In this document: positions 2,856-24,472 of the stretch, one piece after another
How the letters are laid out: each line of letters starts with the position of its first letter
How positions within the stretch are numbered: the stretch's first letter is position 1
IMG/VR virus record: IMGVR_UViG_3300022905_000057
Location: 1 to 25,378 of that record
Source: a virus
Length of the DNA: 25,378 bases
Direction: 5' to 3' (one strand)
The notes under the pieces: model-generated
The model's database searches: none
What the model was told of the DNA's origin: nothing
Seen by the model: only the letters and a program-made list of their open reading frames with translations
Program-made: the position numbers and the translations under genes

Positions 2856-2856
2856 G

Positions 2857-5064
2857 CTATTTAATTATTTGCGAATGCATTCCTTTATTATTAAATCTTT
2901 GTATTTTTATTCCTAATGATTGTTTTTCGTGTTTCGGTTTTGGATGATATAAATGCCTATTACAAGCCATAATAGCAAGCCCGGAACTAATAGTAGCGTC
3001 ATATTTTGTTCTTTTATTTATGTCAAACCTAGCCCAATCATTTAATGTTTTATTGAAATATATATTACCACTCCCGTTTTCATTATATCCAACATATTTA
3101 TCTATGTATGTTTCAATAGCGGCGGCATGAGCTTGTTTTATATCTTCAGATGTATTAGGTATTCCACCTATTTCTTTTTCTGTTATAGATAATTTATTCC
3201 AAATTTTATCAGGTCTGTTCATTGAAAAACCTCTATAACCTCTTCGTTTTAAATGATATAACAATCTTGGTTTGTTATTTTCTGCAAGTATTGGCATACC
3301 GTAAAAAACTAAAGCCATCAAAACATCTTCAAAAAATATTTCAGCAGTTTGAGGTCTAGCTATATATTCTAAAAAAAATGTATGCGGCGGGGCATCTTCC
3401 ATACTAAAGGTTGTTAACCCATGCAATGAACCTTTAGACCCTATACCATCTGTTGTACCTGATATATCATATGAGTCACATCCAAATGCACCAATATGTT
3501 CATTCCCCGGACACTTAGTGCCATTCTTTACTATTACATTGTTTTGCAGATTCTTAGACGGTACCCAGCTAATTAAAAATCTACCATTTGGATTTGGAGT
3601 AAATAATACTTTTGTATCTTTAATTCCGTTTTCCCAACTAAACGATCCTTTTGTTACAAGACCATCTCTTATAGCTGTTTCATTAAAATCAATTTGCTCG
3701 TATATTTTACTTAAATTGAATATACTATTTTTAGCTTCATCTCTAAACGCATGTTCCTCAGTACGAGGAAATTGACGATAATATTCATTTAAACCGTCAC
3801 TGTCATGTTTAAGACCTTCAACTTCATTTTCCCAAAAGTCTATTACGCCTGTGTCAATGTAGTCGCCTCCATTGCCAATGATGGGTTCTTCTGGCGTATC
3901 AAAGACAGGGTATCCAAAAGAATCAATGTATCCTTCGTAGTTCCATTCCATAGGTATGAACAAAGAATATAATCCCGAACTAGTCTGTCCATTTTTATTT
4001 CTTCTGGTAATGTCTGAGTCATAATAAAGTTTTTTGAAGTTATCACCACCTTTTTCTAATGCATTGGATGTTGATCCCATCATACACTTTCCTATAATTC
4101 TACTACCTAATCGTAGTGTTGTTTTTGTTACCCTCCAGTTGTTTAATATATTATCAGGTCTTTCCCATTTACCTGATTCATCATGAACTAATAACTTAAG
4201 CTTTTCACCATCATAACTGTTATCACCTGTATTTTTCCAGTCAATAGTAGTATCTAATCCTTCTAATATTTGTTTTTCATTGGTTTCTGTAATGGATTTT
4301 TTGGTAAGCTTTGATGCGGGTACTCTATACGCAAGCTCTGATTTTGGTCTGTCCATCCCGTCCTGTATTGGTTTGAAAAAGAACGGATAGTTGACGGATA
4401 TTGGTACAACCTTATCGGTAAACATTTTCTTTGCATCTGAACCTGTCTTGGATAAAATACCGAACCGAGCATCAGAGGTGATTGTAGCCTGATTAACGGT
4501 CTCGGCAGATGACATGAAGCTAAACCCAGATCGCCGATTTTTAAGGTAGCACATCCCATAGCATCTTTTATCTGCCTTGCATGCTTCCCAAAAAATAAAG
4601 AATAGTCTGTTGGCTTCTCTATAATCTGGTTTCCCAACATCAATTTTGGTGTGCTGCAAGTACATATAATGAGAACCAGTAATGTAAGTAGGAATGTTTT
4701 TGTTGTTAAACCAATAACCTTCTTCGCGTCTTGTAAACTCTCTATCAATGTATGCATACCATTTATTTTTAAATGAATCCGGATATGTTTCCCAATCAAA
4801 TATACTTTTAATGTTATTTAATTCTTTAGGAAATTCGTGCGGTTCCCATCTGTTATTATTATTATCAATTTCTTTTGGTTGCGGTGGCAATGCTATACAC
4901 AATCCCTGTATTTCAATAATTTCACCAATCTTACCGTTTTTGCTGATAACAATAATATCGTATTCTTTATTATAACCGTATTCCCATTTGTTATACCTAT
5001 TTAATCTTTTGATTACGTTAGGTTTAATTGGTGTTACGGTTTTAACTAATGTCTGTTCGTACAT
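2857..5064 (-). CDS. Terminase large subunit (packaging ATPase-nuclease)
   Basis: This 735-residue protein is the DNA-packaging motor that docks on the portal and cuts concatemeric DNA. Visible elements in order: a conserved lead-in (EEGYWFNNKNIPTYITG, 114-130); a Walker A-like loop KNRRSGFSF at 175-183 that lacks the usual GKS/T; a Walker B hydrophobic run ending in Asp295-Glu296 (LLVHDE); a motif III-like GSTSN at 330-334; then an RNase H-type nuclease half with candidate metal ligands Asp530 and Asp533 (FGCDSYD), Glu595 (ILAENNKP) and Asp689 (TKYDAT). Both halves therefore look intact. The start overlaps the preceding stop in TAATG, suggesting translational coupling, and the portal follows by one base. 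The region 4321-4560, encoding the ATPase core, is somewhat richer in G+C (about 43%) than parts of the flanks. The deviant Walker A is a feature of this terminase group as I remember it, not evidence of inactivation. Confidence 0.92.
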   Translation of the reverse strand: MYEQTLVKTVTPIKPNVIKRLNRYNKWEYGYNKEYDIIVISKNGKIGEIIEIQGLCIALPPQPKEIDNNNNRWEPHEFPKELNNIKSIFDWETYPDSFKNKWYAYIDREFTRREEGYWFNNKNIPTYITGSHYMYLQHTKIDVGKPDYREANRLFFIFWEACKADKRCYGMCYLKNRRSGFSFMSSAETVNQATITSDARFGILSKTGSDAKKMFTDKVVPISVNYPFFFKPIQDGMDRPKSELAYRVPASKLTKKSITETNEKQILEGLDTTIDWKNTGDNSYDGEKLKLLVHDESGKWERPDNILNNWRVTKTTLRLGSRIIGKCMMGSTSNALEKGGDNFKKLYYDSDITRRNKNGQTSSGLYSLFIPMEWNYEGYIDSFGYPVFDTPEEPIIGNGGDYIDTGVIDFWENEVEGLKHDSDGLNEYYRQFPRTEEHAFRDEAKNSIFNLSKIYEQIDFNETAIRDGLVTKGSFSWENGIKDTKVLFTPNPNGRFLISWVPSKNLQNNVIVKNGTKCPGNEHIGAFGCDSYDISGTTDGIGSKGSLHGLTTFSMEDAPPHTFFLEYIARPQTAEIFFEDVLMALVFYGMPILAENNKPRLLYHLKRRGYRGFSMNRPDKIWNKLSITEKEIGGIPNTSEDIKQAHAAAIETYIDKYVGYNENGSGNIYFNKTLNDWARFDINKRTKYDATISSGLAIMACNRHLYHPKPKHEKQSLGIKIQRFNNKGMHSQIIK

Positions 5065-6110: not shown

Positions 6111-6130
6111 TTTATTTAATTATATGTATT

Positions 6131-7114
6131 TTAAGCTGTATAAGTTCCGCTACTAGTGTAGCTTAATATTGTATCCGATCCATCAGTTGTAACAGTAGGA
6201 GAGCCAGTTGTAGTTCCAGAATAGTTTGCGGTAGGCATACGAAGTATAATCACTCCAGAACCACCAGATCCACCCTGAGTAGCTATAGAACTTGAACCTG
6301 TACCACCTCCACCTCCTCCTGTATTTGTTGTACCAGATGTGTATCCGCCTCCGTTTAAGCCACCAGTTCCTCCGCCACCTAATCCGCCAGATAGTGTACT
6401 ACCAGATGGATATTGACCACCACTTCCTCCCCCAGCATAATATGTAGATGACCCTGTTATTGTAGAAGAAGTTCCTATACCACCTTGTCTGCCACTTCCA
6501 GCAGCTCCTGCGCCACCGCCGCCACCTCCAACATCTCCAGGACCACCGCCACCTGTTGCTCCATCATTTCCTTGACCTAAAGTACCAGAACCGCCAGAAG
6601 TAGTTGCAGCATACGCTCCACCACCACCTGAACCGCCATTTTTAGCAGCATAAAAAGAATTTTTATATCCTGCGCCACCTCCACCGCCTATTGATGTTAT
6701 ACTTACAGAGCCTCCTAAAATGGAAGAATCATTTCCAGAAACACTTTCGCTTGTATTTACCCCTCCAGCACCTCCAGCACCTATTGTAATTGAATAAATA
6801 ATACCTGTAGATAAAGAAGTTGTTGATGACAAATAACCACCTGCTCCTCCCCCACCAGAACCTGTATATTGTGCGCCACCACCCCCACCAGCTACAACTA
6901 AATACTCTATGCTGTAAGGATAATCAGTAGTATCTATAGTAAGCCATTCGGTTCCATTGTAAGTTTCTAATACGTTGTCAGTAGTATTAAAACGAATATA
7001 TCCAGCAGAAGGGGATGCAGGGCGCTGTGCAGTCGTTCCTCTAGGAAGTGCAGTAGCCCCTGTGCTAGAATCTAATTCTAGTAACTCTGGATGGTCTATT
7101 TTATCTATAGCCAT
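6131..7114 (-). CDS. Glycine-rich tail-fibre adhesin, paralogue 1
   Basis: This 327-residue protein has three zones. Residues 1-60 hold a shared fibre head, with GTTAQRPASPSAGYIRFNT followed by an ETYNGTEWLTI strand. From about residue 70 (YLVVAGGGGG) to about 292 (GSGVIILRM) it is a glycine-rich domain full of GGGGAGG and GGSGG runs. The last 35 residues form a constant tail (SPTVTTDGSDTILSYTSSG). Glycine-rich domains of this kind in phage adhesins can fold as stacked polyglycine type II helices, as known for the S16-type gp38 tip adhesin, and bind host surface receptors. Here the role of a receptor-binding tip is inferred. Two close paralogues lie at 7506-8588 and 8592-9623. The DNA is dense in CCACC/CCTCC on the plus strand, which creates long but spurious open frames in other phases. 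Confidence 0.85.
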   Translation of the reverse strand: MAIDKIDHPELLELDSSTGATALPRGTTAQRPASPSAGYIRFNTTDNVLETYNGTEWLTIDTTDYPYSIEYLVVAGGGGGAQYTGSGGGGAGGYLSSTTSLSTGIIYSITIGAGGAGGVNTSESVSGNDSSILGGSVSITSIGGGGGAGYKNSFYAAKNGGSGGGGAYAATTSGGSGTLGQGNDGATGGGGPGDVGGGGGGAGAAGSGRQGGIGTSSTITGSSTYYAGGGSGGQYPSGSTLSGGLGGGGTGGLNGGGYTSGTTNTGGGGGGTGSSSIATQGGSGGSGVIILRMPTANYSGTTTGSPTVTTDGSDTILSYTSSGTYTA

Positions 7115-7116
7115 TT

Positions 7117-7494
7117 TTATTCAATTACAAGTTCAACCCAATTTCCAGCTTCTTCATCCCACTTATACATTTTACCATCTGTAGGATAAGGTACAGGAGA
7201 TTCCCATAAACAAGTATCCTCATTTAGAATCCAGCTATTAAAAGGTTGGGGCGGAATAAAAGCATCTCTTACCTCATCGTAAGTGTACCCTATTCCTGCA
7301 TAGTTTTTTCTTAAAGGCTCTTTGTCTGTAGATTCCTCTCCTGTTTCTGGATTGTAGTGTTTACCTCCTCTTGTGTTATAAGAAGTTTGAATCCATTTTC
7401 CAGGCGAGTCATCAACAAAGTTGTTAAAGAAGTCTGCTTCTGCAACAATTACTTTTGTTACTATACCATTTGAAACTTTTGCGTAATGTGCCAT
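7117..7494 (-). CDS. Small AHYAKV-type phage protein among tail-fibre genes
   Basis: This 125-residue protein starts MAHYAKVSNGIVTKVIVAE and is rich in aromatic residues. It contains GKWIQTSYNTRGG, then NYAGIGYTYDEVRDAF, and ends in a Trp-rich region (CLWESPVPYPTDGKMYKW). I recognise this as a common short protein of marine T4-like and pelagic phages, where it lies among structural or fibre genes; a biochemical role is not known to me. It looks like a compact soluble beta domain, without cysteine pairs, signal peptide or membrane segment. It sits between glycine-rich paralogues 1 and 2, with two bases to the next start, so it is probably expressed with them and could be a fibre component or accessory. 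The start is an ATG preceded by TAAATTA, without a Shine-Dalgarno. Confidence 0.82.
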   Translation of the reverse strand: MAHYAKVSNGIVTKVIVAEADFFNNFVDDSPGKWIQTSYNTRGGKHYNPETGEESTDKEPLRKNYAGIGYTYDEVRDAFIPPQPFNSWILNEDTCLWESPVPYPTDGKMYKWDEEAGNWVELVIE

Positions 7495-7505
7495 AATTTA
7501 ATTTA

Positions 7506-8588
7506 TTATGCGGTATATGTTCCGCTTGATGTATATGTTAAAATTGTATCTGTTCCGTCTGTTGTTACTGTAGGGCTCCCTGTATAAGTACCTGAATATG
7601 AAGCTGTAGCTATTCTTAAAATCACAACACCTGAGCCGCCTAAACCGCCTGGCCATTGAGGTGTTCCACTTCTACTTTTACCCCAAGTTCCTCCGCCTCC
7701 GCCGCCAGTATTTGCAGTTCCAGGGCCACCATCTGGATTACCACTTCCTGCTGCACCATAGCCACCGCCACCAATACCTCCAGAAGCGGTTCCGCCAGAA
7801 GTAGGTCCGTAAGAACCGCCTCCACCGCCGCCATAATTTATAGCTGAACCTATTATTGATACTGATAATCCATCCCCACCAGCCCCAGGAGCACAACAAG
7901 TTGACGCAACTCCAGCAGATGCTGTTCCACCGCCTCCAGAAGCTGGATAACTACTATTTCCACTACCTGAATTTGTTCCACCAGCATATCCTTGTCCTGC
8001 CGTTCCAGCACCACCAGATCGGTTATAAAGGTTTCCGCCACCACCGCCACATCCTCCAGCACTACCTGGAATGCCGTATGGAAGATTGAGTGGATTATAA
8101 CCACCACCACCAAATCCTCCTCCAAGGGATGTTATTGTTGTAATATCAGCGCCTGATATTGATGAATCGCTTCCATTGCCTTGACTTCCTCCACCACCTA
8201 CTGTTATTGTGTATGTGGTTCCGTTGCTCAATAATAAATCTGATTCTGCTGATGAACCACCTCCTGAAGTGCTACCATAAGAAGTTCGTAATCCTCCTGC
8301 TCCTCCTCCGCCAGTATTATTATGGTCAGCATTATTATTAGCAAGCCCCCCAGAGCCGCCTCCAGCGACTACAAGGTAAGAAGCAACAGGAGGTTCAAAT
8401 TTATTTACAGTAGCCCATCCAGTACCATTATAAGTTTCTAATTTTGTTTCCCCTATCTCGGTATTATGTCGTATCGTACCCTCTACTGGATTTGTAGGTC
8501 TTTGCGCTGTTGTACCACTAGGCAAAGCTAAAGCATCAGTAGAAACACTTAAATCTAATAAATCGTTTGTTACTTTTGTAATTGCCAT
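7506..8588 (-). CDS. Glycine-rich tail-fibre adhesin, paralogue 2
   Basis: This 360-residue protein has the same plan as its two neighbours. An N-terminal fibre head ends in GTTAQRPTNPVEGTIRHNT and an ETYNGTGWATV strand. A long glycine-rich region runs from about residue 72 (YLVVAGGGSGG) to about 325 (GSGVVILRI). The C-terminal tail is constant (SPTVTTDGTDTILTYTSSG). The middle differs most from its paralogues and includes an unusual Cys-Cys pair (ASTCCAPGAGG), absent from the other two. A receptor-binding role at the fibre tip is inferred from the glycine-rich architecture, which resembles polyglycine type II adhesin domains. It begins three bases after the end of paralogue 3. Related genes with constant ends and a variable glycine-rich core look suited to exchanging binding specificity, which is inference. 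Confidence 0.85.
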   Translation of the reverse strand: MAITKVTNDLLDLSVSTDALALPSGTTAQRPTNPVEGTIRHNTEIGETKLETYNGTGWATVNKFEPPVASYLVVAGGGSGGLANNNADHNNTGGGGAGGLRTSYGSTSGGGSSAESDLLLSNGTTYTITVGGGGSQGNGSDSSISGADITTITSLGGGFGGGGYNPLNLPYGIPGSAGGCGGGGGNLYNRSGGAGTAGQGYAGGTNSGSGNSSYPASGGGGTASAGVASTCCAPGAGGDGLSVSIIGSAINYGGGGGGSYGPTSGGTASGGIGGGGYGAAGSGNPDGGPGTANTGGGGGGTWGKSRSGTPQWPGGLGGSGVVILRIATASYSGTYTGSPTVTTDGTDTILTYTSSGTYTA

Positions 8589-8591
8589 AAT

Positions 8592-9623
8592 CTATGCTGT
8601 ATATGTACCAGAACTTGTATATGTTAATATTGTATTGCTACCATCTGTAGTAACTGTTGGAGAGCCTGTGGTTGTTCCTGTATAATTTGAAGTTAGCATT
8701 CTTAGTATTACTACTCCAGAGCCACCAGTCCCGCCTGCAGTTGCGGCAGTTGTGCCTCCTCCAGCACCCCCAGCACCTCCACCTGTATTAGCAGAACCAT
8801 TAGTTCCATCTAAACTTGTAGTTCCTCCTCTACCTGCACCGCCACCGCCTAAACCAGCAGCACCAGCAGTAGATTCTCCTGAACCTCCGCCACCTCCAGC
8901 ATAATACAAAGCACTACCTGTTATTGATATTTGAGTACCATTTCCTCCATCGCCCCCCGTTCCTAAACTTCCATTTGAACCAGCTACAGAAGCTCCCCCA
9001 CCTCCGCCACTAGCTGAATTTGAGCTATTTGGACTACTATTATCTCCATTTCCACCATTATTTCCTTGACCAATAGTGCCAGTACCACCTAAACTTCCAT
9101 TTGTTATATTAGTATAACCACTACCACCAGCTCCTGATCCTCCATCAACATAAGTTCTTGAACCATTCCAAGCAGAGCTTCCGCCACCACCAGTAGCTGT
9201 TATAGTATCAAATGAAGAATCAACTCCGTTTTTTCCGTCATCTGTGTATCCACTTACACCTCCTGCTCCTCCTGCACCAACTGTAATTGTGTATTGAGTG
9301 CCAGATGTTAATTCGTAGCCAGTAGAATAAAGTAATCCTCCAGCGCCACCGCCACCTGTATTTGCGTGAGTTGTTCCACCAGATCCACTACCACCGCCTC
9401 CAGCTACAACTAAATAGTCTATATCATAAGGAGGTATTTCAGCAAATACTAGTTTCCACTCTGTACCATTATAGTATTCTAAGGAATTTAAATCTGTATT
9501 CTCTCTAATCATACCAGCGACAGGAGAAGTAGGTCTTTGAGCAGTAGTGCCTTTAGGTAGGTTTAGACTTGCAGTACTTACTCCTAGATTTAATAGATCA
9601 TTTTTTACCTTAGTTAGCGCCAT
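8592..9623 (-). CDS. Glycine-rich tail-fibre adhesin, paralogue 3
   Basis: This 343-residue protein begins MALTKVKNDLLNLGVSTASL and carries the fibre-head signature GTTAQRPTSPVAGMIRENT. A EYYNGTEWKLV strand follows, then a glycine-rich core from about residue 72 (YLVVAGGGGSGSGG) to about 308 (GSGVVILRM), and the constant tail ending TYTSSGTYTA. Asn and Ser are frequent in the core, and no catalytic motif is visible. It is the first of the three glycine-rich genes to be transcribed, following the DUF7483-like gene after a 33-base gap that holds a possible seven-codon frame. A host-recognition role is inferred from the family architecture. Protein ends are well conserved between paralogues while third codon positions differ, so the copies are old or came from different sources rather than from a recent local duplication. 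Confidence 0.85.
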   Translation of the reverse strand: MALTKVKNDLLNLGVSTASLNLPKGTTAQRPTSPVAGMIRENTDLNSLEYYNGTEWKLVFAEIPPYDIDYLVVAGGGGSGSGGTTHANTGGGGAGGLLYSTGYELTSGTQYTITVGAGGAGGVSGYTDDGKNGVDSSFDTITATGGGGSSAWNGSRTYVDGGSGAGGSGYTNITNGSLGGTGTIGQGNNGGNGDNSSPNSSNSASGGGGGASVAGSNGSLGTGGDGGNGTQISITGSALYYAGGGGGSGESTAGAAGLGGGGAGRGGTTSLDGTNGSANTGGGAGGAGGGTTAATAGGTGGSGVVILRMLTSNYTGTTTGSPTVTTDGSNTILTYTSSGTYTA

Positions 9624-9629
9624 TTTCTA

Positions 9630-9653
9630 TTATTTTATTTTAAAATTTTCCAT
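9630..9653 (-). CDS. Possible seven-residue micro-ORF after fibre gene (weak)
   Basis: After the stop of the fibre gene at 9657 the repeated junction supplies an ATG followed by GAA AAT TTT AAA ATA AAA TAA, encoding MENFKIK. The frame at 12049-12096 starts similarly (MEQLKIYF). The shared ATG-GAA lies inside the 27-base repeat, so similarity of the first two codons is explained by the DNA repeat; the K-I at residues 5 and 6 is the only extra agreement. It may be an untranslated remnant of a former downstream gene. I list it only because it fills a gene gap. Confidence 0.15.
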   Translation of the reverse strand: MENFKIK

Positions 9654-9674
9654 TGTTTATGCTATTGCTAAATA
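9651..9674. repeat. 24-base stop-start junction repeat, copy 1
   Basis: Bases 9651-9674 are identical to 12094-12117 and 24449-24472. Read on the minus strand, the unit covers the last codons of the fibre gene (ending Leu-Ala-Ile-Ala), the stop TAA, two spacer bases and an AATG whose ATG begins the next frame. Copies 1 and 2 agree over three further bases (27 in all). The repeat crosses the coding end, so protein conservation alone does not explain it. Confidence 0.85.
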
Positions 9675-10682
9675 TATACAAGTATTGTTTGAATGATTAA
9701 ATGAATATGCGGTATTTATTGTAAATCCATCTGAATCAAAATTTATATCATAACCTGTATTTTCAGAATCAGCTTGGTCAGCTTTTAAATGTTTATTCCT
9801 TGGATTAGAAGTATTTCTTGCAGCATCGAAAATGTACCAATATTCTATATATCCAATATAAGTTTTAATCATAAGAAAACGTGGCTGGAATCCTGTTGTT
9901 ATTTTATTACCGACTGCTGATGTTCCTTGAAAGCTACCCACTTTCTGATATCCATCTACTGAATGGAAACAGTAGGCGATGTAATCCTTGTTGACTGTAC
10001 CTGATTCACCTGTATTTCCTATCGTAAAAACAGTACTTGTTGGTCTTGCCGTAGGACTACCAAAAATACTTCCTGAACCTGATTGAATAGCATAAAGGTT
10101 TAATTGTAAGAAATTACCATTAGTTAAATCCTTATGAAGTACTGACCAATCATTTGTAGTTTCTAATCCTTTTACAATAAGCAACTCTACAGTTGAACTC
10201 AATCCGTGTCCTACTGTAGCTGTACTTCCATTCCCAGTATACTTAACAATACTAAACCCTGCATCAGGATTTGCTGACACTTGAGAAGTAATTGTACCAT
10301 TTGTGTTTGATACCGCTGAACCTCCAGCCTTGAATGCATAGTAAACATATTTATCACTAGAACTACAGCGATTTGTTTGAGTGTATGCGCCTCCGTTTGT
10401 ACTTACGTTAAAACCTTCAGAATCAAATGTAAGCATATTTTGTGCTGGTGCAAGTGCATTTGTAAGTTGGGTTTGTAAATAACCATTTGAGGCTCCAATA
10501 ACAGTATCCCACGAAGACCAACCTTGGGCAACAGTGCGGTTTTTAATTAACACAAAATCTGCAGCGAAACCAGCATTTATTGATTGCGATGTACAATTAC
10601 CATCATAAAGCCCAACATTAAAATTATCTGTTGCGACTATTCCACCGCCAGCTTGGTCAATAAGTCTTTTATTTAATCCCAT
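9657..10682 (-). CDS. Tail-fibre protein with one DUF7483-like unit
   Basis: This 341-residue protein consists almost wholly of one repeat unit shared with 12100-15408 and 24455-25378. Diagnostic segments in order are FAADFVLIKNRT near residue 40, YYAFKAGGSAVSN near 113, NPDAGFSIVKYTGNG near 137, VGHGLSSTVELLIVK near 157, AYCFHSVDGYQKVGSF near 237, TGFQPRFLMIK near 263, and the terminal IYLAIA. I recognise this as a DUF7483-type domain found in phage fibre or tail proteins; the biochemical role is unknown, but a beta-rich virion surface protein is likely. It follows the 153-residue gene directly (stop TAA joined to ATG). Its last codons, stop and the bases just after are identical over at least 24 bases to the ends of two other such genes. 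It is member C' of a duplicated three-gene module. Confidence 0.85.
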   Translation of the reverse strand: MGLNKRLIDQAGGGIVATDNFNVGLYDGNCTSQSINAGFAADFVLIKNRTVAQGWSSWDTVIGASNGYLQTQLTNALAPAQNMLTFDSEGFNVSTNGGAYTQTNRCSSSDKYVYYAFKAGGSAVSNTNGTITSQVSANPDAGFSIVKYTGNGSTATVGHGLSSTVELLIVKGLETTNDWSVLHKDLTNGNFLQLNLYAIQSGSGSIFGSPTARPTSTVFTIGNTGESGTVNKDYIAYCFHSVDGYQKVGSFQGTSAVGNKITTGFQPRFLMIKTYIGYIEYWYIFDAARNTSNPRNKHLKADQADSENTGYDINFDSDGFTINTAYSFNHSNNTCIYLAIA

Positions 10683-11144
10683 TTATATAAAACTTGGAAG
10701 TTCGTAATCAATTACACTTGCCTTTGTTGTTAACGCATTTATATTTGTTTCGTGTGTTGCGCATTCAGTTCTTAATGCCGTTCTTGCATCAAGGATGTCT
10801 TGTGGAACGGCAGTTCCTTCTTGACCACGAATTATATACCAATCAGTTTTTGCAAGTTCACGGTTGTATAAATCTTTAAGATTTGCAATCTTTTGTTCTT
10901 TTAATTCAGCGACTGTTTGTGTATATGTTCTTGCTTCTACTGGGTATGTAAACACTTCAAGATTGGCATCAAAATATATTTCCCCAAGTTGTTCAGATTG
11001 TTTTGTTTCTGGCATTACAACATCGTAAAATCCAAGACCTTTTAAATCTTCATCCGACATATAATTAACCCCAAGAATATTACCCCAAGTTTTGGGAACT
11101 GAAGAATATGTTTTTATTGTACCGTTTAAGTTTATTCCTTTCAT
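10683..11144 (-). CDS. Small fibre-associated protein, copy B' (possible fibre chaperone)
   Basis: This 153-residue protein begins MKGINLNGTIKTYSSVPKTW. It has a middle LGFYDVVMPETKQSEQLGEIYFD and a helical C-terminal half with AELKEQKIANLKDLYNRELAKTDW split across residues 83-106, followed by IIRGQEGTAVPQDILDARTALR. The TDWYxxR and IxxxRxxLR pattern resembles tail-fibre assembly proteins (DUF4376 or Caudo_TAP type), which help fibre trimerisation or stay attached to fibres. I regard that as a plausible but unproven role. Its paralogue is the 160-residue protein at 15410-15892, in which DWYYIR, GTAVPQ and the IANLK segment are retained. Both lie immediately upstream of a DUF7483-like fibre gene, here with stop and start directly abutting, suggesting each partner acts on the fibre encoded next to it. 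Confidence 0.82.
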   Translation of the reverse strand: MKGINLNGTIKTYSSVPKTWGNILGVNYMSDEDLKGLGFYDVVMPETKQSEQLGEIYFDANLEVFTYPVEARTYTQTVAELKEQKIANLKDLYNRELAKTDWYIIRGQEGTAVPQDILDARTALRTECATHETNINALTTKASVIDYELPSFI

Positions 11145-11155
11145 TTTATATTATT

Positions 11156-12046
11156 TTAAGATGGGTCTGTGTCGCTTGTATATGTTGCAACCGAATAAAT
11201 TAATATTGCATCTGAATCATTATCATCAATACATACTACTTGAATATGGTTTGAAGAAGCACCATCATATACGCCGCTTCCAGCTTGATTTATAGTAGAA
11301 GTTGTAAAGTCGTCTGCCATTGTAATGGTTTGCGCTCCAGTTACTAAGATATCAATTACTTGCCCTTTTTTAAAGTTTTGAATATTTAAAGTGGTAGCTC
11401 CTGTCAAAGCAGAAGTGATTTCAAATATAGAATAAAGAGAAGTATCTAAATTAATTGTACCGCTTGTTGTTGCAATATCTTGTTTATCTGTAAATCTTGC
11501 ACCAAGTTTTTCGTATGATACAACATCGTCTGCTAAATGAACAGTATCAATACTTCCATCAACATACTGATCTGAATCAATAGCGTCAGCAGCCATTTTA
11601 GTATTTGTTATAGAGCCATCTGCTACAGTAGTAAGTGCTATTGCTTTAATATGTACTAAATCTATATCAGTTCCATTAGGAGGCGCTGTAGTAAATGTTA
11701 TAGTAGTTCCTGAAACAGAATAATTATCTTTTGATTGATATATCCCATCAAAATAAACTTGAGTATTATTTTTAGAATCTATACTTTGTGAAGCAGTAAA
11801 AGCAACTGTAGTGCCATCTCCTGTAAATGCATTATAGTATATAGTTGCTACATCTCCACCACCAATACCTCCCCATTCGGTAGTATATCCCTCAAATTCA
11901 TTTGTTGTTGTATTATATCGGAACATTCCAGCGGCAGGTACACTAGGTCTTTCTGCTGTAGTTCCTGAAGGGACTCCCATGCTTTCTGTACCAGCTAACT
12001 GTACATTTTCTTCTAAAACATGCTTTGTTACCTTAGTTAGTGCCAT
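11156..12046 (-). CDS. Tail-fibre protein with shared head, beta repeat and terminal domain, copy A'
   Basis: This 296-residue protein begins MALTKVTKHVLEENVQL. Residues about 27-62 hold the shared fibre head (GTTAERPSVPAAGMFRYNT, then a Gly-Trp-rich strand). Residues about 73-132 form one beta repeat (FTGDGTTVAFTAS, then NTQVYFDGIYQSKDNY, then SGTTITFTTAPPNG) of the type present three times in 16334-17992. The C-terminal part, from SYEKLGARFTDKQDI through DILVTGAQTITMADDF to IQVVCIDD, matches the 145-residue protein at 15895-16332. It is therefore a mosaic of modules found elsewhere in the block. No enzymatic motif is visible; a structural fibre role is likely. It is followed by the B' and C' genes in the same order as the A-B-C set at 16332-12100. 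Its ATG is two bases after a possible 15-residue micro-ORF. Confidence 0.83.
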   Translation of the reverse strand: MALTKVTKHVLEENVQLAGTESMGVPSGTTAERPSVPAAGMFRYNTTTNEFEGYTTEWGGIGGGDVATIYYNAFTGDGTTVAFTASQSIDSKNNTQVYFDGIYQSKDNYSVSGTTITFTTAPPNGTDIDLVHIKAIALTTVADGSITNTKMAADAIDSDQYVDGSIDTVHLADDVVSYEKLGARFTDKQDIATTSGTINLDTSLYSIFEITSALTGATTLNIQNFKKGQVIDILVTGAQTITMADDFTTSTINQAGSGVYDGASSNHIQVVCIDDNDSDAILIYSVATYTSDTDPS

Positions 12047-12048
12047 AA

Positions 12049-12096
12049 TTATTTATTTATTCTGTTATTTAAAAAGTATATCTTCAATTGTTCCAT
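12049..12096 (-). CDS. Possible 15-residue micro-ORF in fibre-gene gap (weak)
   Basis: The gap after the 1102-residue fibre gene is almost exactly filled by an ATG frame encoding MEQLKIYFLNNRINK and ending TAA two bases before the next ATG at 12046. The ATG belongs to the 24-base junction repeat shared with 9651-9674 and 24449-24472, and in the third location the same ATG begins a real gene. It could be a genuine micropeptide, a remnant of a displaced gene, or chance in A/T-rich sequence. No homologue can be judged by eye. Confidence 0.2.
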   Translation of the reverse strand: MEQLKIYFLNNRINK

Positions 12097-12117
12097 TGTT
12101 TATGCTATTGCTAAATA
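12094..12117. repeat. 24-base stop-start junction repeat, copy 2
   Basis: This copy lies at the end of the 1102-residue fibre gene. Its ATG opens a 15-residue frame that fills the gap to the next gene. It is identical over 24 bases to copies 1 and 3, and over 27 to copy 1. Confidence 0.85.
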
Positions 12118-15100
12118 AATCCAATCATATCCTGAATTATTATATGACTCTCCTGATAATGTAAATCCTGTTGATGTGAATGTATGGGTGTCACTTGCGG
12201 TGTACTCTGTATTGCTTCCGTTTGCTGTTGAAAACTTATTATTTGGTCTTACGGCATCAATCATATACCAACTTGAAGCAAGATTAGTAGCCTTAATCAT
12301 TACAAATCTTGGTTGAAATCCTGTTGTAATAGTTTGACCACTTACTCCAGTTCCACTATAATTCCCTATCTTCTGATACCCAGATACTGAATGGAAACAG
12401 TAGGTTATTTGTGTTTGACCTGAATTGTTGTTATTTCCTGTACCAACAGAAAATACTGTTGATGTAGGTGCGGTATTATTCCAAAAAGCTGTACTTGTTG
12501 CTGCCGCAGCAGAATCATTAAGATATAAACCTTTTGTAGCACCTGTAGCTGAAGAATAGACGTGCCAATCATACGCACCGCTTATAGATTTATTTATAAT
12601 CAATTCAGGAGTAGAAGAAAGTCCGTGGCCAACAGTTAATGTACTGCCGGTTCCTGTCCACTTCACAATACTAAACCCTGCAGCAGCATTCACACTAACA
12701 ACACTATCTATAGTTCCGTTTGTGTTTATCTGTGGTAGGTTGTCATCGTGGTCGCCTGCTTTCCAAACCCACGCTACATAGGTTGAAGAATTTCTGTTTA
12801 CACCTGCACTTGAAGAAAGAGTAAATCCATTTGAATCGAAAGAAGATATAGCTGAGTCAGAAGAAGGCGGATTTTCTGCACTTGTTAGATTAGAATATAA
12901 AGTATATCCTGCTCCTCTAATAGAATCGTTTAAGAAATGATTATCGGCAGCTGAACGACCTTTCACCCAAACCAAATCAGGCTTGAAGTCTGTATTAATA
13001 GTTTGAGTACTACCATTCCCTGTATAAGTAACAACATCAAAGCTATCCTCTACAACTGGTTCTGTTATATCAGGGTCTGCTGCTATTGCAAGGTAGATGT
13101 ATGTGCCACCTGAAGCGTTTCCATCACCGCCTGTAGTAATCATTTCAAATCCATTTGACAATAGATTAACGTCTTGTGGATTAACCACGCCCTCTGCCTC
13201 ATCAAGGTTTGGATATAGCCTTGCTTTTAAAGCAGAAGTTGCATTTCTTTCATTATCGTGCATTACCCAGTTTCCTGTAGCATCAGCTCTTTTGTACATT
13301 ATAAAAGCAGGTTCAAATCCTGTTTCTATATAGTTACCTGTTGCTCCTGTTCCTGTATAAGACCCTATTTTAGAATAATTTTCCACTGAATGGAAGCAGT
13401 AGGCGATGTGATTTGCACTACGACTTATTGCATAGTTACTTCTTACTCCAATACTCCCCACTGTAGATGTGTTATCATAAAACGTTTGTCCTGTAGGACT
13501 TCCAAGAGCATTTGTTGAATTTAAAAATAAAAAACCATCTTGGTTTAAGTCTTTATGTTGTACTCTCCAATCTCCTGAACCATCTAATATCTTATAAATT
13601 GTCATTTCAACAGGCGAATTTAATCCGTGTGAAATGTAATTCATAACTGCAGATGTTGAATTACTTGAAGTAAATTTAACTATACTAAACCCTGCATCAG
13701 GATTTGGTGACATTGTAACATTTGTAGCTTCACTACTTGTTCCTGTTACTGCTGAACCTCCTGCTTTCCAAGCCCAAGCAACGTAATTTACTCCATTTGA
13801 ATTTGTATGCTCCGCTCCTGTGCTACCTGTCTTTACTGTAAATCCATTTGTATCAAATGTATCTATAAAACCATATATACCATAAGTTCCTTCTGCAAGA
13901 GTTAAGTTAGGGTTTAAAGCAGTACTTTGACCCCCACCTCTTACTGAATCTTGTAAATTATGAGAATACGGACTTGTTCTTGCCTTCACCCAAACCAAAT
14001 CAGGTTGGAAATCTGTAGCTTTTTGGTAAGTTACGTTTGTAGCAGTACCATCATAAGCATAGATTACGTTAGTAGCCGCTCCATCATATAGTTGTTGCTC
14101 ATCTCTTGCATCTCCATCAAATTTATAGTGGGCAACAAGATTAGCAGTTGGTACACTTGATTCGTTGTATAAGTTAGTTATATCTGAACTACTTAATGCT
14201 GATGAATATATTCGGAATTGGTCTAATTTGCCAATATAATTAAAAAATATTCCACTACTTACACTTTTTCCAGAACCTATTGTATGAAATTGATAATTAG
14301 AATCTGTAAAATTTCTTATAGTACCATCATAAGACTGAGTTGTGTCTAAACTACCATTTACATATACTTTAATATTTGAACTATCATAAGTTACAGAAAC
14401 ATTATACCAAACATTATCAGAAAATGTTGTTGAAGATTGAAATTGCACATTTGTTCCATTACTTTGAACTAAATTAAATTGTATTTTTTTAGTTGCTAAA
14501 GTAAAATATGAAATATTAAAATTTTTAGAAAATTCAATTATTCTTCCATAATCATTATAAGTGCTATTATGCCAAAAAGAAATACTAAGTTCTCCGCTTG
14601 TATCAAATAAATTTCTTAAATTAAGGCTACTAACTTCAATGCTACTACTACTCCCATTAAATATAGCAGCACTTCCAAACTTACCACTTACACCCCCTGT
14701 ATCATTAGCGTTACCATCTAATTGGTATAAAGCAACCCCTGAATCATCATTAAATATATCTGTTACAGATTTAGATGTACTTGTAGCAGTTTCCCCATAT
14801 AGAGTAGTTACTTCTGAAGAGGATAATGCTTTGTCAAAGATTCTTACTTGGTCTAATTTATTATTGAAATGATAAACGCCTTGTGTGGCATCATACCATT
14901 CCCCTATTGAAATATATGAAGTTGTATTATAAGTAGCATTTTTTGTTTGCGTAGTAAATAAGCTCCCATCTATATATGCTTTAAATTCATTAACCCCATC
15001 CCAAGTTAAAACAAAATGATGCCATCCATTTGATAATGTAGGCAAAGTACCAAGATTAACATCGTGTGAAGAAGTAAACCCTTGTACATAAAATTGTCCT

Positions 15101-15408
15101 GTTGATTGGTCAAACCAAATACCAATACTCAACCCTGCAGTCCCCCATTGACCAGTACTAACTAATGTTCCAGCAGTTGTACCATTTGTGCACGCCCAAA
15201 CGCTATAAGAGCGAGCTGCATTTCCTGTGATAGCACTAAATGAAGTATTAATTATCCTACTACTACTCCCATTAAAAGCAGCACCTCTATTTATATACCC
15301 ACCAATACGTTGAGTTCCACCATTACCTGTATAGGTTACAGTATCAAAGTTTCGTGATGGAAGAAAAGCTGCTTCTGCACCTGTATTTATTAATTTTTTA
15401 CCAATCAT
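12100..15408 (-). CDS. Large chimeric tail-fibre protein: two LamG domains plus two DUF7483-like units
   Basis: At 1102 residues this is the largest protein in the window. After a short leader (residues 1-45, including DTVTYTGNGGTQRI) come two LamG / concanavalin A-like lectin domains. The first spans about 45-205 (AAFNGSSSRI ... WHHFVLTWDGVNEFKAYIDG ... LDQVRIFDKALSSSEV); the second about 240-435 (GSAAIFNGSSSSIEV ... WYNVSVTYDSSNIKVYVNGS ... LDQFRIYSSALSSSDI). Two DUF7483-like units follow at about 465-780 and 790-1102, each with PDLVWVK, AWKAGG or VWKAGD, AGFSIVK, AYCFHSV or TYCFHSV, and YLAIA. LamG domains commonly bind glycans, so a carbohydrate-recognition role on the fibre is likely. 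The first unit ends YLAIAADPDITEP and runs into the second without a stop, so two fibre genes appear fused. It is member C of the duplicated module, and the junction with the preceding gene is TAA-T-ATG. Confidence 0.88.
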   Translation of the reverse strand: MIGKKLINTGAEAAFLPSRNFDTVTYTGNGGTQRIGGYINRGAAFNGSSSRIINTSFSAITGNAARSYSVWACTNGTTAGTLVSTGQWGTAGLSIGIWFDQSTGQFYVQGFTSSHDVNLGTLPTLSNGWHHFVLTWDGVNEFKAYIDGSLFTTQTKNATYNTTSYISIGEWYDATQGVYHFNNKLDQVRIFDKALSSSEVTTLYGETATSTSKSVTDIFNDDSGVALYQLDGNANDTGGVSGKFGSAAIFNGSSSSIEVSSLNLRNLFDTSGELSISFWHNSTYNDYGRIIEFSKNFNISYFTLATKKIQFNLVQSNGTNVQFQSSTTFSDNVWYNVSVTYDSSNIKVYVNGSLDTTQSYDGTIRNFTDSNYQFHTIGSGKSVSSGIFFNYIGKLDQFRIYSSALSSSDITNLYNESSVPTANLVAHYKFDGDARDEQQLYDGAATNVIYAYDGTATNVTYQKATDFQPDLVWVKARTSPYSHNLQDSVRGGGQSTALNPNLTLAEGTYGIYGFIDTFDTNGFTVKTGSTGAEHTNSNGVNYVAWAWKAGGSAVTGTSSEATNVTMSPNPDAGFSIVKFTSSNSTSAVMNYISHGLNSPVEMTIYKILDGSGDWRVQHKDLNQDGFLFLNSTNALGSPTGQTFYDNTSTVGSIGVRSNYAISRSANHIAYCFHSVENYSKIGSYTGTGATGNYIETGFEPAFIMYKRADATGNWVMHDNERNATSALKARLYPNLDEAEGVVNPQDVNLLSNGFEMITTGGDGNASGGTYIYLAIAADPDITEPVVEDSFDVVTYTGNGSTQTINTDFKPDLVWVKGRSAADNHFLNDSIRGAGYTLYSNLTSAENPPSSDSAISSFDSNGFTLSSSAGVNRNSSTYVAWVWKAGDHDDNLPQINTNGTIDSVVSVNAAAGFSIVKWTGTGSTLTVGHGLSSTPELIINKSISGAYDWHVYSSATGATKGLYLNDSAAAATSTAFWNNTAPTSTVFSVGTGNNNNSGQTQITYCFHSVSGYQKIGNYSGTGVSGQTITTGFQPRFVMIKATNLASSWYMIDAVRPNNKFSTANGSNTEYTASDTHTFTSTGFTLSGESYNNSGYDWIYLAIA

Positions 15409-15409
15409 A

Positions 15410-15892
15410 TTATAAGCTTATGTCGTAAGTTACAACTGATGCTTCTGTTGTTAATGCATTAATTTCGGCTTCTTTTGTAGATACGGTTGTCATTATTGAC
15501 GCTCTATCATCTATAATTTGTTGCGGTACTGCTGTACCCAATGCTGTAAGTCTTATATAATACCAATCAGTTTCGGCAAGTTTAGAATTAGCTGATGATT
15601 TTAAGTTAGCTATTTTTTGCTCTTTAAGTTCATCTAAACTTTGTGACCAAGTTTTATCTGTCTTGTCGTAAGTAAATTGTGTATTAGCACTATCAAAATA
15701 TATTTCCCCTAAATTATGAATTCTTGAATCATAACCATCAGGAATAACAACATCAAACAATCCTGCTTCTTTTAATTGCCCTTCTGTCATTGCAGATGCA
15801 TTCAAATAAGTTCCTGTTGAAGAGTATAAAACTTTAGGTACTCCTTCGTAAACTTTTATTATACCGTTTTTATTTATTGCTTTCTTTCCCAT
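15410..15892 (-). CDS. Small fibre-associated protein, copy B (possible fibre chaperone)
   Basis: I choose ATG 15890-15892, giving 160 residues (MGKKAINKNGIIKVYEGVPK). An upstream GTG at 15925 would overlap the preceding gene, whereas this ATG is two bases after that gene's TAA and aligns with the start of its paralogue at 10683-11144. It shares with that paralogue the N-terminal N-G-x-I-K-x-Y segment, LFDVVIPDGYDSR beside LGEIYFD, the helical ELKEQKIANLK run, TDWYYIR, GTAVPQ and a closing NALTTEASVVTY. The pattern resembles small tail-fibre assembly or attachment proteins, but no function is demonstrated. It is followed, after a single base, by the large DUF7483/LamG fibre gene. The tight spacing on both sides suggests coupled translation with its fibre partners. 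Confidence 0.82.
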   Translation of the reverse strand: MGKKAINKNGIIKVYEGVPKVLYSSTGTYLNASAMTEGQLKEAGLFDVVIPDGYDSRIHNLGEIYFDSANTQFTYDKTDKTWSQSLDELKEQKIANLKSSANSKLAETDWYYIRLTALGTAVPQQIIDDRASIMTTVSTKEAEINALTTEASVVTYDISL

Positions 15893-15894
15893 GA

Positions 15895-16332
15895 TTATAC
15901 TGCTTCTTGACTTATAGATGCCCACTGTTCAGTTGCACCATTGGTTGCTACTATTTGAATTAGGTTTGATACTGTCCCGTCGTATGTTCCAGATATAACC
16001 TTAACTGATGCTGGAAGAGCTAATGTAAAGTCACCTGTGATTACAAGGTCTTTTACCATTCCAGTTGATACGTTTGAAAATGTCAATGTATCGTTTGCAG
16101 TTAATGTTTTAGTGAACACTTGAGCTGTACTAAAGTCTACATCACTTGCAGATAATACAGAAGCTGTTGTAAATTCATTTCCTAATTTTGTATAAGAAAC
16201 CGAATCATCAGCTACGCCAGCTCCATTGTATAGTTCAGTAAAATTATCATTTGTTTTATCAAATGCAGATCTTACTGACTCTCCAGTACCGTCATTTGCG
16301 GTTGTTCCGATATTAATTGATTGTTGTGCCAT
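15895..16332 (-). CDS. Short tail-fibre protein, copy A
   Basis: This 145-residue protein begins MAQQSINIGTTANDGTGESV, followed by RSAFDKTNDNFTELYNG. This is the NDGTG...AFxKxNxNFxELY signature I recognise at the base of many phage fibre proteins. From about residue 42 (DDSVSYTKLGNEFTT) to its end it parallels the C-terminal part of the 296-residue protein at 11156-12046, with KDLVITGDFTLALP and VISGTYDGTVSNLIQIV in the same order. It looks all-beta and structural, with no catalytic residues. It begins one base after the 552-residue fibre gene ends and is followed two bases later by the B gene, so it is the A member of the first A-B-C set. The ATG leader is ACATTAAA with no Shine-Dalgarno. 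Confidence 0.83.
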   Translation of the reverse strand: MAQQSINIGTTANDGTGESVRSAFDKTNDNFTELYNGAGVADDSVSYTKLGNEFTTASVLSASDVDFSTAQVFTKTLTANDTLTFSNVSTGMVKDLVITGDFTLALPASVKVISGTYDGTVSNLIQIVATNGATEQWASISQEAV

Positions 16333-21572: not shown

Positions 21573-22012
21573 TATCTTTCTTTATCTTTATGCATATTGT
21601 CTATAGCTGCATTAAATACTTTATCACTATAGCTTTTGTTTTTATTAAACACGCTTCTGCTTGTTGTAGGTAAATCTTCTTGACCTAATAATATTCTGTA
21701 GATTCTCGATATTAAATGCTTGCATTTAGTTGAAACCTTATATATGTTATATTTAACTGTAGTATGGTTTCTTTTTGTATATATATCTATCCAACCGTCA
21801 TTTCGTAATCTTTCCCAACGGTGTTTATCCCAAGAATATATATATGTACCTTTTATGTAATCATTACGCGTAAAACGCCCAAGACAATCAAAATAAACTA
21901 ATAATTCAAGATCCGCATCATTTAGCTTGTATGTTTTGCAAGCCCACTTTCTAACTACTCTATAATATTTAAAAAGACCAATACGTCTAATATCATCAGA
22001 CTCAAGCCTCAT
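21572..22012 (-). CDS. Winged-helix-like protein, possible DNA-binding regulator
   Basis: This 146-residue basic protein looks mostly helical, with LNDADLELLVYFDCLGRFTR at about 31-50 and YSWDKHRWERLRNDGWIDIY at about 59-78, followed by a beta strand pair (TTVKYNIYKVSTK). The order helix, helix, recognition-like helix with WxRLxxxGWI and a two-strand wing resembles MarR-type winged helices. The remaining C-terminal 45 residues are Ser/Asn/Lys-rich. I have seen similar short proteins in marine phage contigs as hypothetical. DNA binding and a regulatory role are inferred from pattern only. Its ATG overlaps the groES stop by four bases (ATGA), so it is translated in the same unit as the chaperonin genes. 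Confidence 0.72.
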   Translation of the reverse strand: MRLESDDIRRIGLFKYYRVVRKWACKTYKLNDADLELLVYFDCLGRFTRNDYIKGTYIYSWDKHRWERLRNDGWIDIYTKRNHTTVKYNIYKVSTKCKHLISRIYRILLGQEDLPTTSRSVFNKNKSYSDKVFNAAIDNMHKDKER

Positions 22013-22269
22013 AACACAATTACAACGTCTTGTTCTTTTATAACTAATAAGTATTCTCCGTCGTAGTTTATGCCGTAACCAGCATGTCTGTCGTAATATA
22101 TGTTATCCCCTGGAGCAATTCCTTCAACATAATTACCAACAGAACGTACTTCAGCTTTTCTATATCGTATTTCATCTTGATGCTTTTCTGTAAGAATTAA
22201 ACCAGATTCATTAGGTTTAATTTCTTCTTTAATTGATTTAATTATAATAAATTTGTTTACAGCTTTCAT
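22009..22269 (-). CDS. groES: Co-chaperonin GroES
   Basis: This 86-residue protein is the lid for the GroEL chamber. It starts MKAVNKFIIIKSIKEE (bacterial equivalent: first barrel strand), then the mobile loop at about 16-33 with the hydrophobic triplet Leu24-Ile25-Leu26 after Gly23 (ESGLILTEKH), matching the GIVL of bacterial GroES. Then come AEVRSVGNYVEGIAPGD with Gly54-Asp55, and a closing EYLLVIKEQDVVIVL. Compared with bacterial GroES (about 97 residues) it is a little short, and the roof-loop region reads YYDRHAGYGINYDGE. The KAVNKF start and RHAGYGI section fit the phage GroES group I know from marine phages. The ATG overlaps the groEL stop as ATGA, giving groEL-groES order, opposite to bacterial groES-groEL. 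Coupled translation with groEL is likely. Confidence 0.9.
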   Translation of the reverse strand: MKAVNKFIIIKSIKEEIKPNESGLILTEKHQDEIRYRKAEVRSVGNYVEGIAPGDNIYYDRHAGYGINYDGEYLLVIKEQDVVIVL

Positions 22270-23819
22270 TGCTCTCTAACATTAGAAATTATACAATTTG
22301 CTGATAATATTGTTGTGGCAACTGAAACAGCATTCTTTAAAGCTGTTTTTGTAACTAATACAGGATCAATAATACCTTCTTTTATAAGATTAACACCTTT
22401 ACCAGTTACAACATTTATACCCCAGCCTTTATCCATATAAGGGCCATAGGCTATATCTGCATTTTCTAATATTTTTTTATATGGTGCTTTAATAGCTTCA
22501 AAAAGTATTTCATATCCAAGATTACCATCTTTTGAAATACTATCAGCAGCATTATGCAATGCAATACCAGCACCAGCTACAATACCTTCTTTTAAGGCTG
22601 CTTTTACAGCATAGATAGCATCTTCTACCCTGTCTTTCTTTTCTTTAAGCTCAATTTTAGAATTAGCCCCTACATATAACACGCCAACTGATCCGGAAAG
22701 CATTGCTTTTCTTTCTTCAAGCTTTTTAAGTAAATAAGGGTTCTTTTCTTCTTTTAATTGTTTTTCAATAACATCTATTCTGTCTTTAACTTCTTCGCTT
22801 AGCTCTTCAATAGTTATAACAGTGTTATTGTCGTCCGTAACGGACTTTTGAGCTTCACCTAGTACTGATTCATTAATTAAATCTAAATCGTCCCCTAACT
22901 CTTCTGAAATGACTTTTGCACCTGTTAAAGCAGCTAAGTCATCGAGCATATCTCTTCTTAAGTTAGAAAATCCAGGTGGATCAATAACATTTACTTTAAT
23001 GTTGCCTTTTACTTTATTCATTATAAGTGCTGATTGCACTTGAGGCGAAACATTACCAATAATTAGTATTGATCTTTTATTTTTAATAGCATACTCTAAT
23101 ACCGCTTGTATTTTTCTAATAGTTGAAATTTCAGAATCAACTAATAATATTAACGGTTTTTCAAGTTCTGCTTTATTTTTTTCTTTATCAGTTATTAAAT
23201 GCTGAGATTTTAAACCTGAATCAAATTGAACACCATCTATAATTTCTATAAACGTTTCATCAGTATCAGACTCTTCCATAAGGACCACGCCTCCTTCACC
23301 AACTTTTGTATATGCATCAGCTATTAATTTACCTAATACTTTATCATTGTTTGTTGAAATATTAGCGACGTGCTCAAGCATTGCACCCTTAACGGGCGTT
23401 GAAGAACTTTCTAGATAATTAATTACTTTATCAGTAGCTTCTAGTATTTGTTCTTTTGTAATTCTTGCATCAGCTACTTCTTTAGCAACATAACTTTTTA
23501 AAATGGAGTGTGCGAGGACAGTACTAGTTGTAGTACCATCGCCCGCTTCCTTCACTGTCTTTTGTGCTGCCTCTTTCACGAGGGTTGCGCCAATGTTTTC
23601 AATTGGATCCATTAACACCACACTATTCGCAACAGTCACTCCGTCTTTTGTAACAATCGGCTTTCCAAGCATGTCTTCATATATAACACATTTGCCCGAT
23701 GCACCTAGAGTTGATGACACAGCTTCAGCGAGCTTCTCAACTCCAGCCATAATTTTACTTTGAGCTTCATTGCCAAAACTAAGAGTTTTAACAATTTCAC
23801 TCGGATGATTAAATTCCAT
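22266..23819 (-). CDS. groEL: Chaperonin GroEL (phage-encoded)
   Basis: This 517-residue protein is a full-length group I chaperonin, folding proteins in an ATP-driven chamber with GroES. Equatorial ATP-site elements are present: KDGVTV with Asp59, GDGTTT at 93-98 with Asp94, the VEDAIYAV segment with Asp400 (equivalent of E. coli Asp398), and IIDP with Asp485. The apical domain is recognisable from about 195 to 375 (SALIMNKVKGNIKVNVIDPP, then GFSNLRRDMLDDLAALTG). Differences from E. coli GroEL: no Gly-Gly-Met C-terminal tail (it ends SNVREQ), TLGASG in place of TLGPKG, and GAGIAL in place of GGGVAL. The C-terminal tail loss and length suit a divergent phage protein. Codons 28-105 use many G/C-ending codons, then the next 35 have none. 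It starts 20 bases after the previous gene with leader TTTAATTTA. Confidence 0.95.
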   Translation of the reverse strand: MEFNHPSEIVKTLSFGNEAQSKIMAGVEKLAEAVSSTLGASGKCVIYEDMLGKPIVTKDGVTVANSVVLMDPIENIGATLVKEAAQKTVKEAGDGTTTSTVLAHSILKSYVAKEVADARITKEQILEATDKVINYLESSSTPVKGAMLEHVANISTNNDKVLGKLIADAYTKVGEGGVVLMEESDTDETFIEIIDGVQFDSGLKSQHLITDKEKNKAELEKPLILLVDSEISTIRKIQAVLEYAIKNKRSILIIGNVSPQVQSALIMNKVKGNIKVNVIDPPGFSNLRRDMLDDLAALTGAKVISEELGDDLDLINESVLGEAQKSVTDDNNTVITIEELSEEVKDRIDVIEKQLKEEKNPYLLKKLEERKAMLSGSVGVLYVGANSKIELKEKKDRVEDAIYAVKAALKEGIVAGAGIALHNAADSISKDGNLGYEILFEAIKAPYKKILENADIAYGPYMDKGWGINVVTGKGVNLIKEGIIDPVLVTKTALKNAVSVATTILSANCIISNVREQ

Positions 23820-24451: not shown

Positions 24452-24472
24452 TGTTTATGCTATTGCTAAATA
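24449..24472. repeat. 24-base stop-start junction repeat, copy 3
   Basis: This copy lies at the end of the partial fibre gene at the right edge. Here the ATG inside the repeat is the start of the cysteine-rich 85-residue gene, so the repeat links a fibre end to an unrelated downstream gene. Confidence 0.85.

Follow-up and report, generated by a model that had tools for sequence, protein, structure and literature searches.

Two diverged three-gene fibre cassettes in a phage genome fragment and the parts that appear to travel together among their relatives

The virus record fragment analysed here over its full 25,378 bp (hereafter the window) carries two diverged fibre cassettes on its minus strand, A1-B1-C1 at 16332-12100 and A2-B2-C2 at 12046-9657. 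Judged by sequence comparison with related loci, the unit that is kept together in such cassettes is not a set of whole genes: it comprises the C-terminal domain of A (At), the small protein B and the tag, an N-terminal segment of C of about 12 codons. The genes discussed below follow one another on the minus strand as Y, Z, A1, B1, C1, A2, B2, C2, D, g8, g7 and g6. The window's terminase is 63% identical to that of an environmental phage and about 46% identical to those of Flavobacterium 'elemo' phages, which points to a probable kinship with flavobacterial phages; the relatives of this virus are uncultured. Elsewhere in the window, a third DUF7483 gene, missed by the first-pass annotation, occupies 24455-25378 (minus strand), its 5' end being cut off by the end of the record. 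A GroES-like gene (Cpn10, E 4e-9) adjoins a GroEL-like gene (Cpn60, E 9e-49) at 22009-23819 (minus strand), and a related locus, L131, seems to hold such a pair too.

All six open reading frames were recovered on the minus strand where the first-pass annotation had placed them, and the homology between the two sets, in the same A-B-C order, goes beyond chance. They are as closely packed as had been described, with 2 nt between A1 and B1, 1 nt between B1 and C1, 53 nt between C1 and A2, 11 nt between A2 and B2 and none between B2 and C2. Pairwise alignments confirmed that the members of each pair are homologous, but A and C are so over only part of their lengths. B1 (15410-15892, 160 aa) and B2 (10683-11144, 153 aa) align from end to end (49% over 155 aa, BLAST E 1e-43, shuffle z 59). 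For A1 (15895-16332, 145 aa) and A2 (11156-12046, 296 aa), only the C-terminal ~100 residues align (A1 40-129 with A2 171-272: 35%, E 1e-9, z 11). This region is the At domain, aa 40-145 of A1 (15895-16215) and aa 171-296 of A2 (11156-11536), the latter also matching the At profile. The N-terminal parts are unrelated: the head of A2 begins with MALTKV, as do D, g8 and g6, and A2 has a DUF4183-like domain that scores below its cut-off. C1 (12100-15408, 1102 aa) consists of the tag MIGKKLINTGAE (15373-15408), two LamG-like domains and two DUF7483 domains (Pfam E 4.9e-163), while C2 (9657-10682, 341 aa) carries the tag MGLNKRLIDQAG (10647-10682) and a single DUF7483 domain (E 1.5e-74); DUF7483 (PF24299) lies above the Pfam cut-off in both. 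The two proteins, which are receptor-binding-like, can be aligned only over DUF7483, and since C1 has two such domains, C2 matches it twice (44%, E 1e-59 and 40%, E 9e-48). The copies are thus strongly diverged, with LamG-like domains in C1 and differing heads in A1 and A2, as had been noticed from the sequence. Compared as DNA, the cassettes show patchy similarity, with short stretches mostly at 69-76%.

Three glycine-rich fibre genes, g6, g8 and D, with Gly_rich_2 domains, lie at 6131-9623 (minus strand). Their C-terminal ends are near-identical (GSPTVTTDG..YTSSGTYTA), and a small MAHYAK.. protein, g7, sits between two of them. Glycine-rich fibre genes often occur near the cassette in relatives. 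At L330 (2241-3480) and L332 (2729-4052), a second At gene has no B after it but a glycine-rich fibre that starts differently (MFGQ..L.FGGIAGG), together with a MAHFAK.. protein.

Nearly all relatives retain the A-B-C order. More than 150 loci were collected from two IMG/VR scans with B, and after B genes were made non-redundant at less than 90% mutual identity, 60 of 65 directly followed a gene ending in At. A second sample was started from At, found independently of B: here a full-length B came next after 66 of 69 non-redundant At genes, and the tag stood at the start of the third gene in 56 of 62 cases, the remaining six showing close variants, among them KRLV, KRIV and PKKL. Because contigs are partly shared by the two scans, these samples are independent by discovery route and not wholly by content. 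A scan of genome contigs gave one match, in a Bacteroidetes MAG. The earlier view that the unit evolves as a cassette agrees well with this conserved order, the parts travelling together. In L079-L084 (e.g. L083:5771-5998), a truncated B-like gene of 75-85 aa, corresponding to the N-terminal half only, directly precedes the full B.

The two cassettes of the window do not look like a duplication in place. In the B tree, B1 and B2 fall in separate well-supported (starred) clades, each with its nearest kin in other phages. Sister phages, with terminases 93-95% identical to that of the window, carry one cassette each. The C gene runs straight into the homologue of g5 in L088, L095, L089 and L099, and between C1 and g5 the window has about 6 kb extra (6122-12099) holding A2-B2-C2 together with the glycine-rich genes D, g8 and g6 and with g7. 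Thirty long records were compared, each with one full B; a window-type terminase (66-95%) was seen in 8 of them and in none of the other 22, which may be fragments. L360 and L361 are 99.6% identical over 3,408 bp up to the C stop and then diverge, L360 having at that point a further A-C unit in which a tag-like C directly follows At with no B of its own. Two cassettes are also present at L024, L068, L086 and L131, and at L086 the two types occur in reverse order relative to the window. The block difference between sister phages, the L360/L361 pair and the other two-cassette loci therefore indicate that cassettes are gained and lost as blocks. The two cassettes of L024 are separated by a gene (2536-3120) bearing NUMOD3, a motif associated with homing endonucleases.

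The first-pass annotation had described the three-gene unit as duplicated in tandem. Duplication in place followed by divergence would account for the homologous order and direct orientation of the two sets, but we consider it highly improbable given the separate starred clades of B1 and B2, the lack of the second cassette in the sister phages and the opposite order at L086; a recent event of this kind is rejected on the evidence of the B tree and the sister phages. On the sequence comparisons, the second cassette of the window is best read not as a fresh duplicate but as a block that was gained, or that the sisters lost. The two cassettes might still go back to an ancient duplication, with later exchange and loss.

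What is kept within a cassette and what is exchanged was measured on 96 unique A-B-C trios. Among pairs in which B was at least 90% identical, median identity was 0.89 for At and 1.0 for the tag, against 0.73 for the A head and 0.39 for the C body. Pairs whose B genes are similar but whose C bodies differ gave a concordant picture at the DNA level: identity stayed high until B ended, lay at 0.76-1.0 across C codons 1-14 and was about 0.39 from codon 26 on, with a modal breakpoint at C codons 10-13. The same transition is visible in the window, where the segment 10648-12015, extending from C2 codon 12 across B2 and A2, shares 80.6% identity with L042, a locus whose C body is unrelated to C2 and whose surroundings differ too. 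The DNA similarity of cassette 2 to L039, L042 and L045 ends at the end of the C2 tag (10648-10650). In L045 and L039, an A1-like At (identity 0.92 and 0.89) goes with a cassette-2-type B and tag. The suggestion that the unit has matched partners is thus borne out for the C-terminal domain of A, for B and for the first ~12 codons of C, and fails for the C body; a B that belongs with the C body is ruled out, since that body changes at high B identity.

Co-variation was evaluated by Spearman correlation on aligned sequences after redundancy reduction. At correlated at 0.50 with the N-domain of B versus 0.24 with its C-domain (95% range of the subsample difference 0.11-0.38), a relation to which physical linkage may contribute, At and the B N-domain being adjacent. 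For the tag, the difference between the two halves of B was not significant in this redundancy-reduced test (0.23 for the N-domain versus 0.14 for the C-domain), and a first-pass hint that the tag tracks the N-domain was lost. A strict pairing in which each B has its own C as sole client is therefore not favoured, as it is with the terminal domain of A that the B N-domain co-varies, and the client of B may, on this correlation, be A itself.

C displays a short conserved N-terminal peptide, basic-hydrophobic and of ~8-12 residues, in front of a variable body. The tag pattern was devised on the B set and then applied to the DUF7483 set, in which it was found in 11 of 12 genes with a full B upstream and in 0 of 47 without (Fisher 4e-11). 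DUF7483 proteins fell into groups. In type I, a full B lies upstream and the tag is present at the N-terminus; type II proteins have no tag, an 'E.PFKY.NAR'-like end and a B-like gene downstream, whose similarity is mainly to the helical half of B (profile match to B, 99.7%); pelagiphage-type proteins start with MAYTTI.... Where a B-like gene comes immediately after the DUF7483 gene, the latter always has a C-terminal 'AR' tail (33/33), but this tail is also present in 17 that lack such a neighbour. Our literature search returned no mention of DUF7483.

In sequence and fold, B shows weak yet consistent links to proteins of tail-fibre assembly. The AF2 model of B2 (pLDDT 95) places strands within residues 2-71 and helices at 78-146, that is, the N-terminal beta and C-terminal helical domains within ~150-200 aa that make up the Tfa layout. 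B1 matched PHROG 4912 'tail fiber assembly' at E 1e-4, and 34 of 61 B members hit this PHROG (best 9.4e-8), PHROGs having no curated cut-off. The curated Tfa family PF16778 was hit below its cut-off in 12/61 members (best E 0.0014), no NCBIfam chaperone matched B, and PDB sequence and fold searches with B gave nothing significant. In BFVD, B2 matched entries that bear the name phage tail assembly chaperone (TM 0.34-0.43, E 2.8e-4 to 9e-4). The Pam3 gp25 and phage Mu Tfa proteins (PMC9608196) resemble B in size (162 aa for gp25), in having a beta N-domain and a helical C-domain and in the adjacency of their genes to a fibre gene; in Pam3 gp25, the beta domain binds the fibre and the helices trimerise (PMC9608196). 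Unlike them, B has an N-domain that matches no solved one, scores below curated Pfam cut-offs and is encoded between the genes of a putative adapter and a putative receptor-binding protein.

The putative adapter likeness of A concerns both of its parts. The head of A1 resembles T4_gp9_10_N (PF07880; E 1.1e-4, 22.7 bits against a cut-off of 25), and A1 matches PHROG 677 'baseplate wedge tail fiber protein connector' at E 5e-12. In the AF2 model of A1 (pLDDT 91), At is a beta-sandwich for which VIA-align found phage tailspike and baseplate domains at middling Z scores of 6.5-8.5, among them CBA120 TSP4 79-180 (6.8) and chains of the KP1 baseplate (7.2). From its position after an anchor of ~80 residues, TSP4 79-180 should be the XD1 domain (PMC8825819), described as a spacer, the TSP4/gp10 docking sites being XD2/XD3 (PMC8825819). 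Many A heads resemble T4 gp9/10 N, and that of A2 is different. Unlike the T4 gp9 and CBA120 TSP4 adapters (PMC8825819), A is far smaller and its similarity is weak, and the role given to it is a predicted one. A likeness of A to cholera toxin B, the best in a profile search against PDB sequences, was taken as chance (E 0.3 and worse).

On balance we favour a model in which A would be a gp9/gp10-like adapter, B an assembly chaperone of the Tfa/Pam3-gp25 kind and C a receptor-binding protein docked by its tag, the window holding two such cassettes. A would be bound to the virion and present its C-terminal At beta-sandwich as the mounting end. The N-terminal beta domain of B would recognise the client and its helical domain would probably trimerise, and C would be attached through the tag peptide and a flexible Ala/Gly linker. 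Recombination would supply fresh C bodies, joined immediately after the tag, and fresh heads, joined ahead of At; specificity would thereby change around a persisting core of At, B and tag. A second possible receptor specificity would come from the second cassette, a block that the window acquired or that its sisters lost.

The tag-like C of L360, which has no B of its own, speaks against this model. It also weighs against a reading in which B is a permanent virion part bridging At and the C tag instead of a transient chaperone, as does the grouping of its helical half with tail-fibre assembly proteins. A bridge would suit the position of the B gene between A and C, the co-variation of its N-domain with At and the occurrence of the tag where a full B lies directly upstream, and the Mu and ur-lambda chaperones do remain in the virion (PMC9608196); we nevertheless hold it to be rather unlikely. 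Also rather unlikely is the proposal of a self-contained docking kit, made up of At, B and the tag and transferable as such, with B as a stable At-type-specific linker and any body with a matching tag of 8-12 residues displayed; if so, marine phages would stack several kits and gain tips by recombination behind the tag. That the tag is mere shared DNA for homologous recombination, with no function in the protein, would explain why breakpoints cluster just past it. This seems improbable to us, since the basic-hydrophobic motif recurs with different sequences across B clades, is nearly universal after B and is absent from DUF7483 proteins without a full B upstream; same-residue codon identity is moreover only slightly higher in the tag than in the end of B (0.88 versus 0.82, the lower bins being affected by the ungapped comparison).

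The adapter-chaperone-tag model makes the cassette a variant of already known kinds of system, and two diverged cassettes is a better wording for the window than a duplication. In invertible segments of the phage Mu G-loop type, one phage has two alternative fibre ends and a separate chaperone for each. The window resembles them in having two fibre-chaperone-like sets in one phage; both of its cassettes are on the minus strand and not in opposite orientation, so switching by inversion is not expected. In K1-5 and SP6, adapter-mounted receptor-binding proteins share only an N-terminal peptide of 7 or 11 residues, and similar peptide sharing has been proposed for Klebsiella phages, with MALxxLV in KP34 group A (PMC6872550). 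C is like these proteins and G7C gp66/gp63.1 (PMC6872550) in combining a variable body with a very short common N-terminal peptide, but the sequence of that peptide is unrelated, a chaperone-like gene intervenes, the likeness of At is to XD1 and not to the docking domains XD2/XD3, and no depolymerase was recognised here. In Alteromonas phages A5, V22 and P24, a fibre and its cognate chaperone move together between unrelated marine phages, according to the available part of PMC10579305; unlike the cassettes of the window, the modules described in that part have no tag with an exchangeable body downstream, and two divergent modules in one phage are not reported there.

These results define a widespread host-recognition cassette of uncultured marine phages and tell its putative mounting parts apart from an exchangeable tip. 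DUF7483, a family of unknown function, is now tied to predicted receptor-binding positions, and any tagged gene after B would offer a route from metagenomes to receptor-binding proteins. How phages can swap tips and yet keep them attached becomes a directly testable question.
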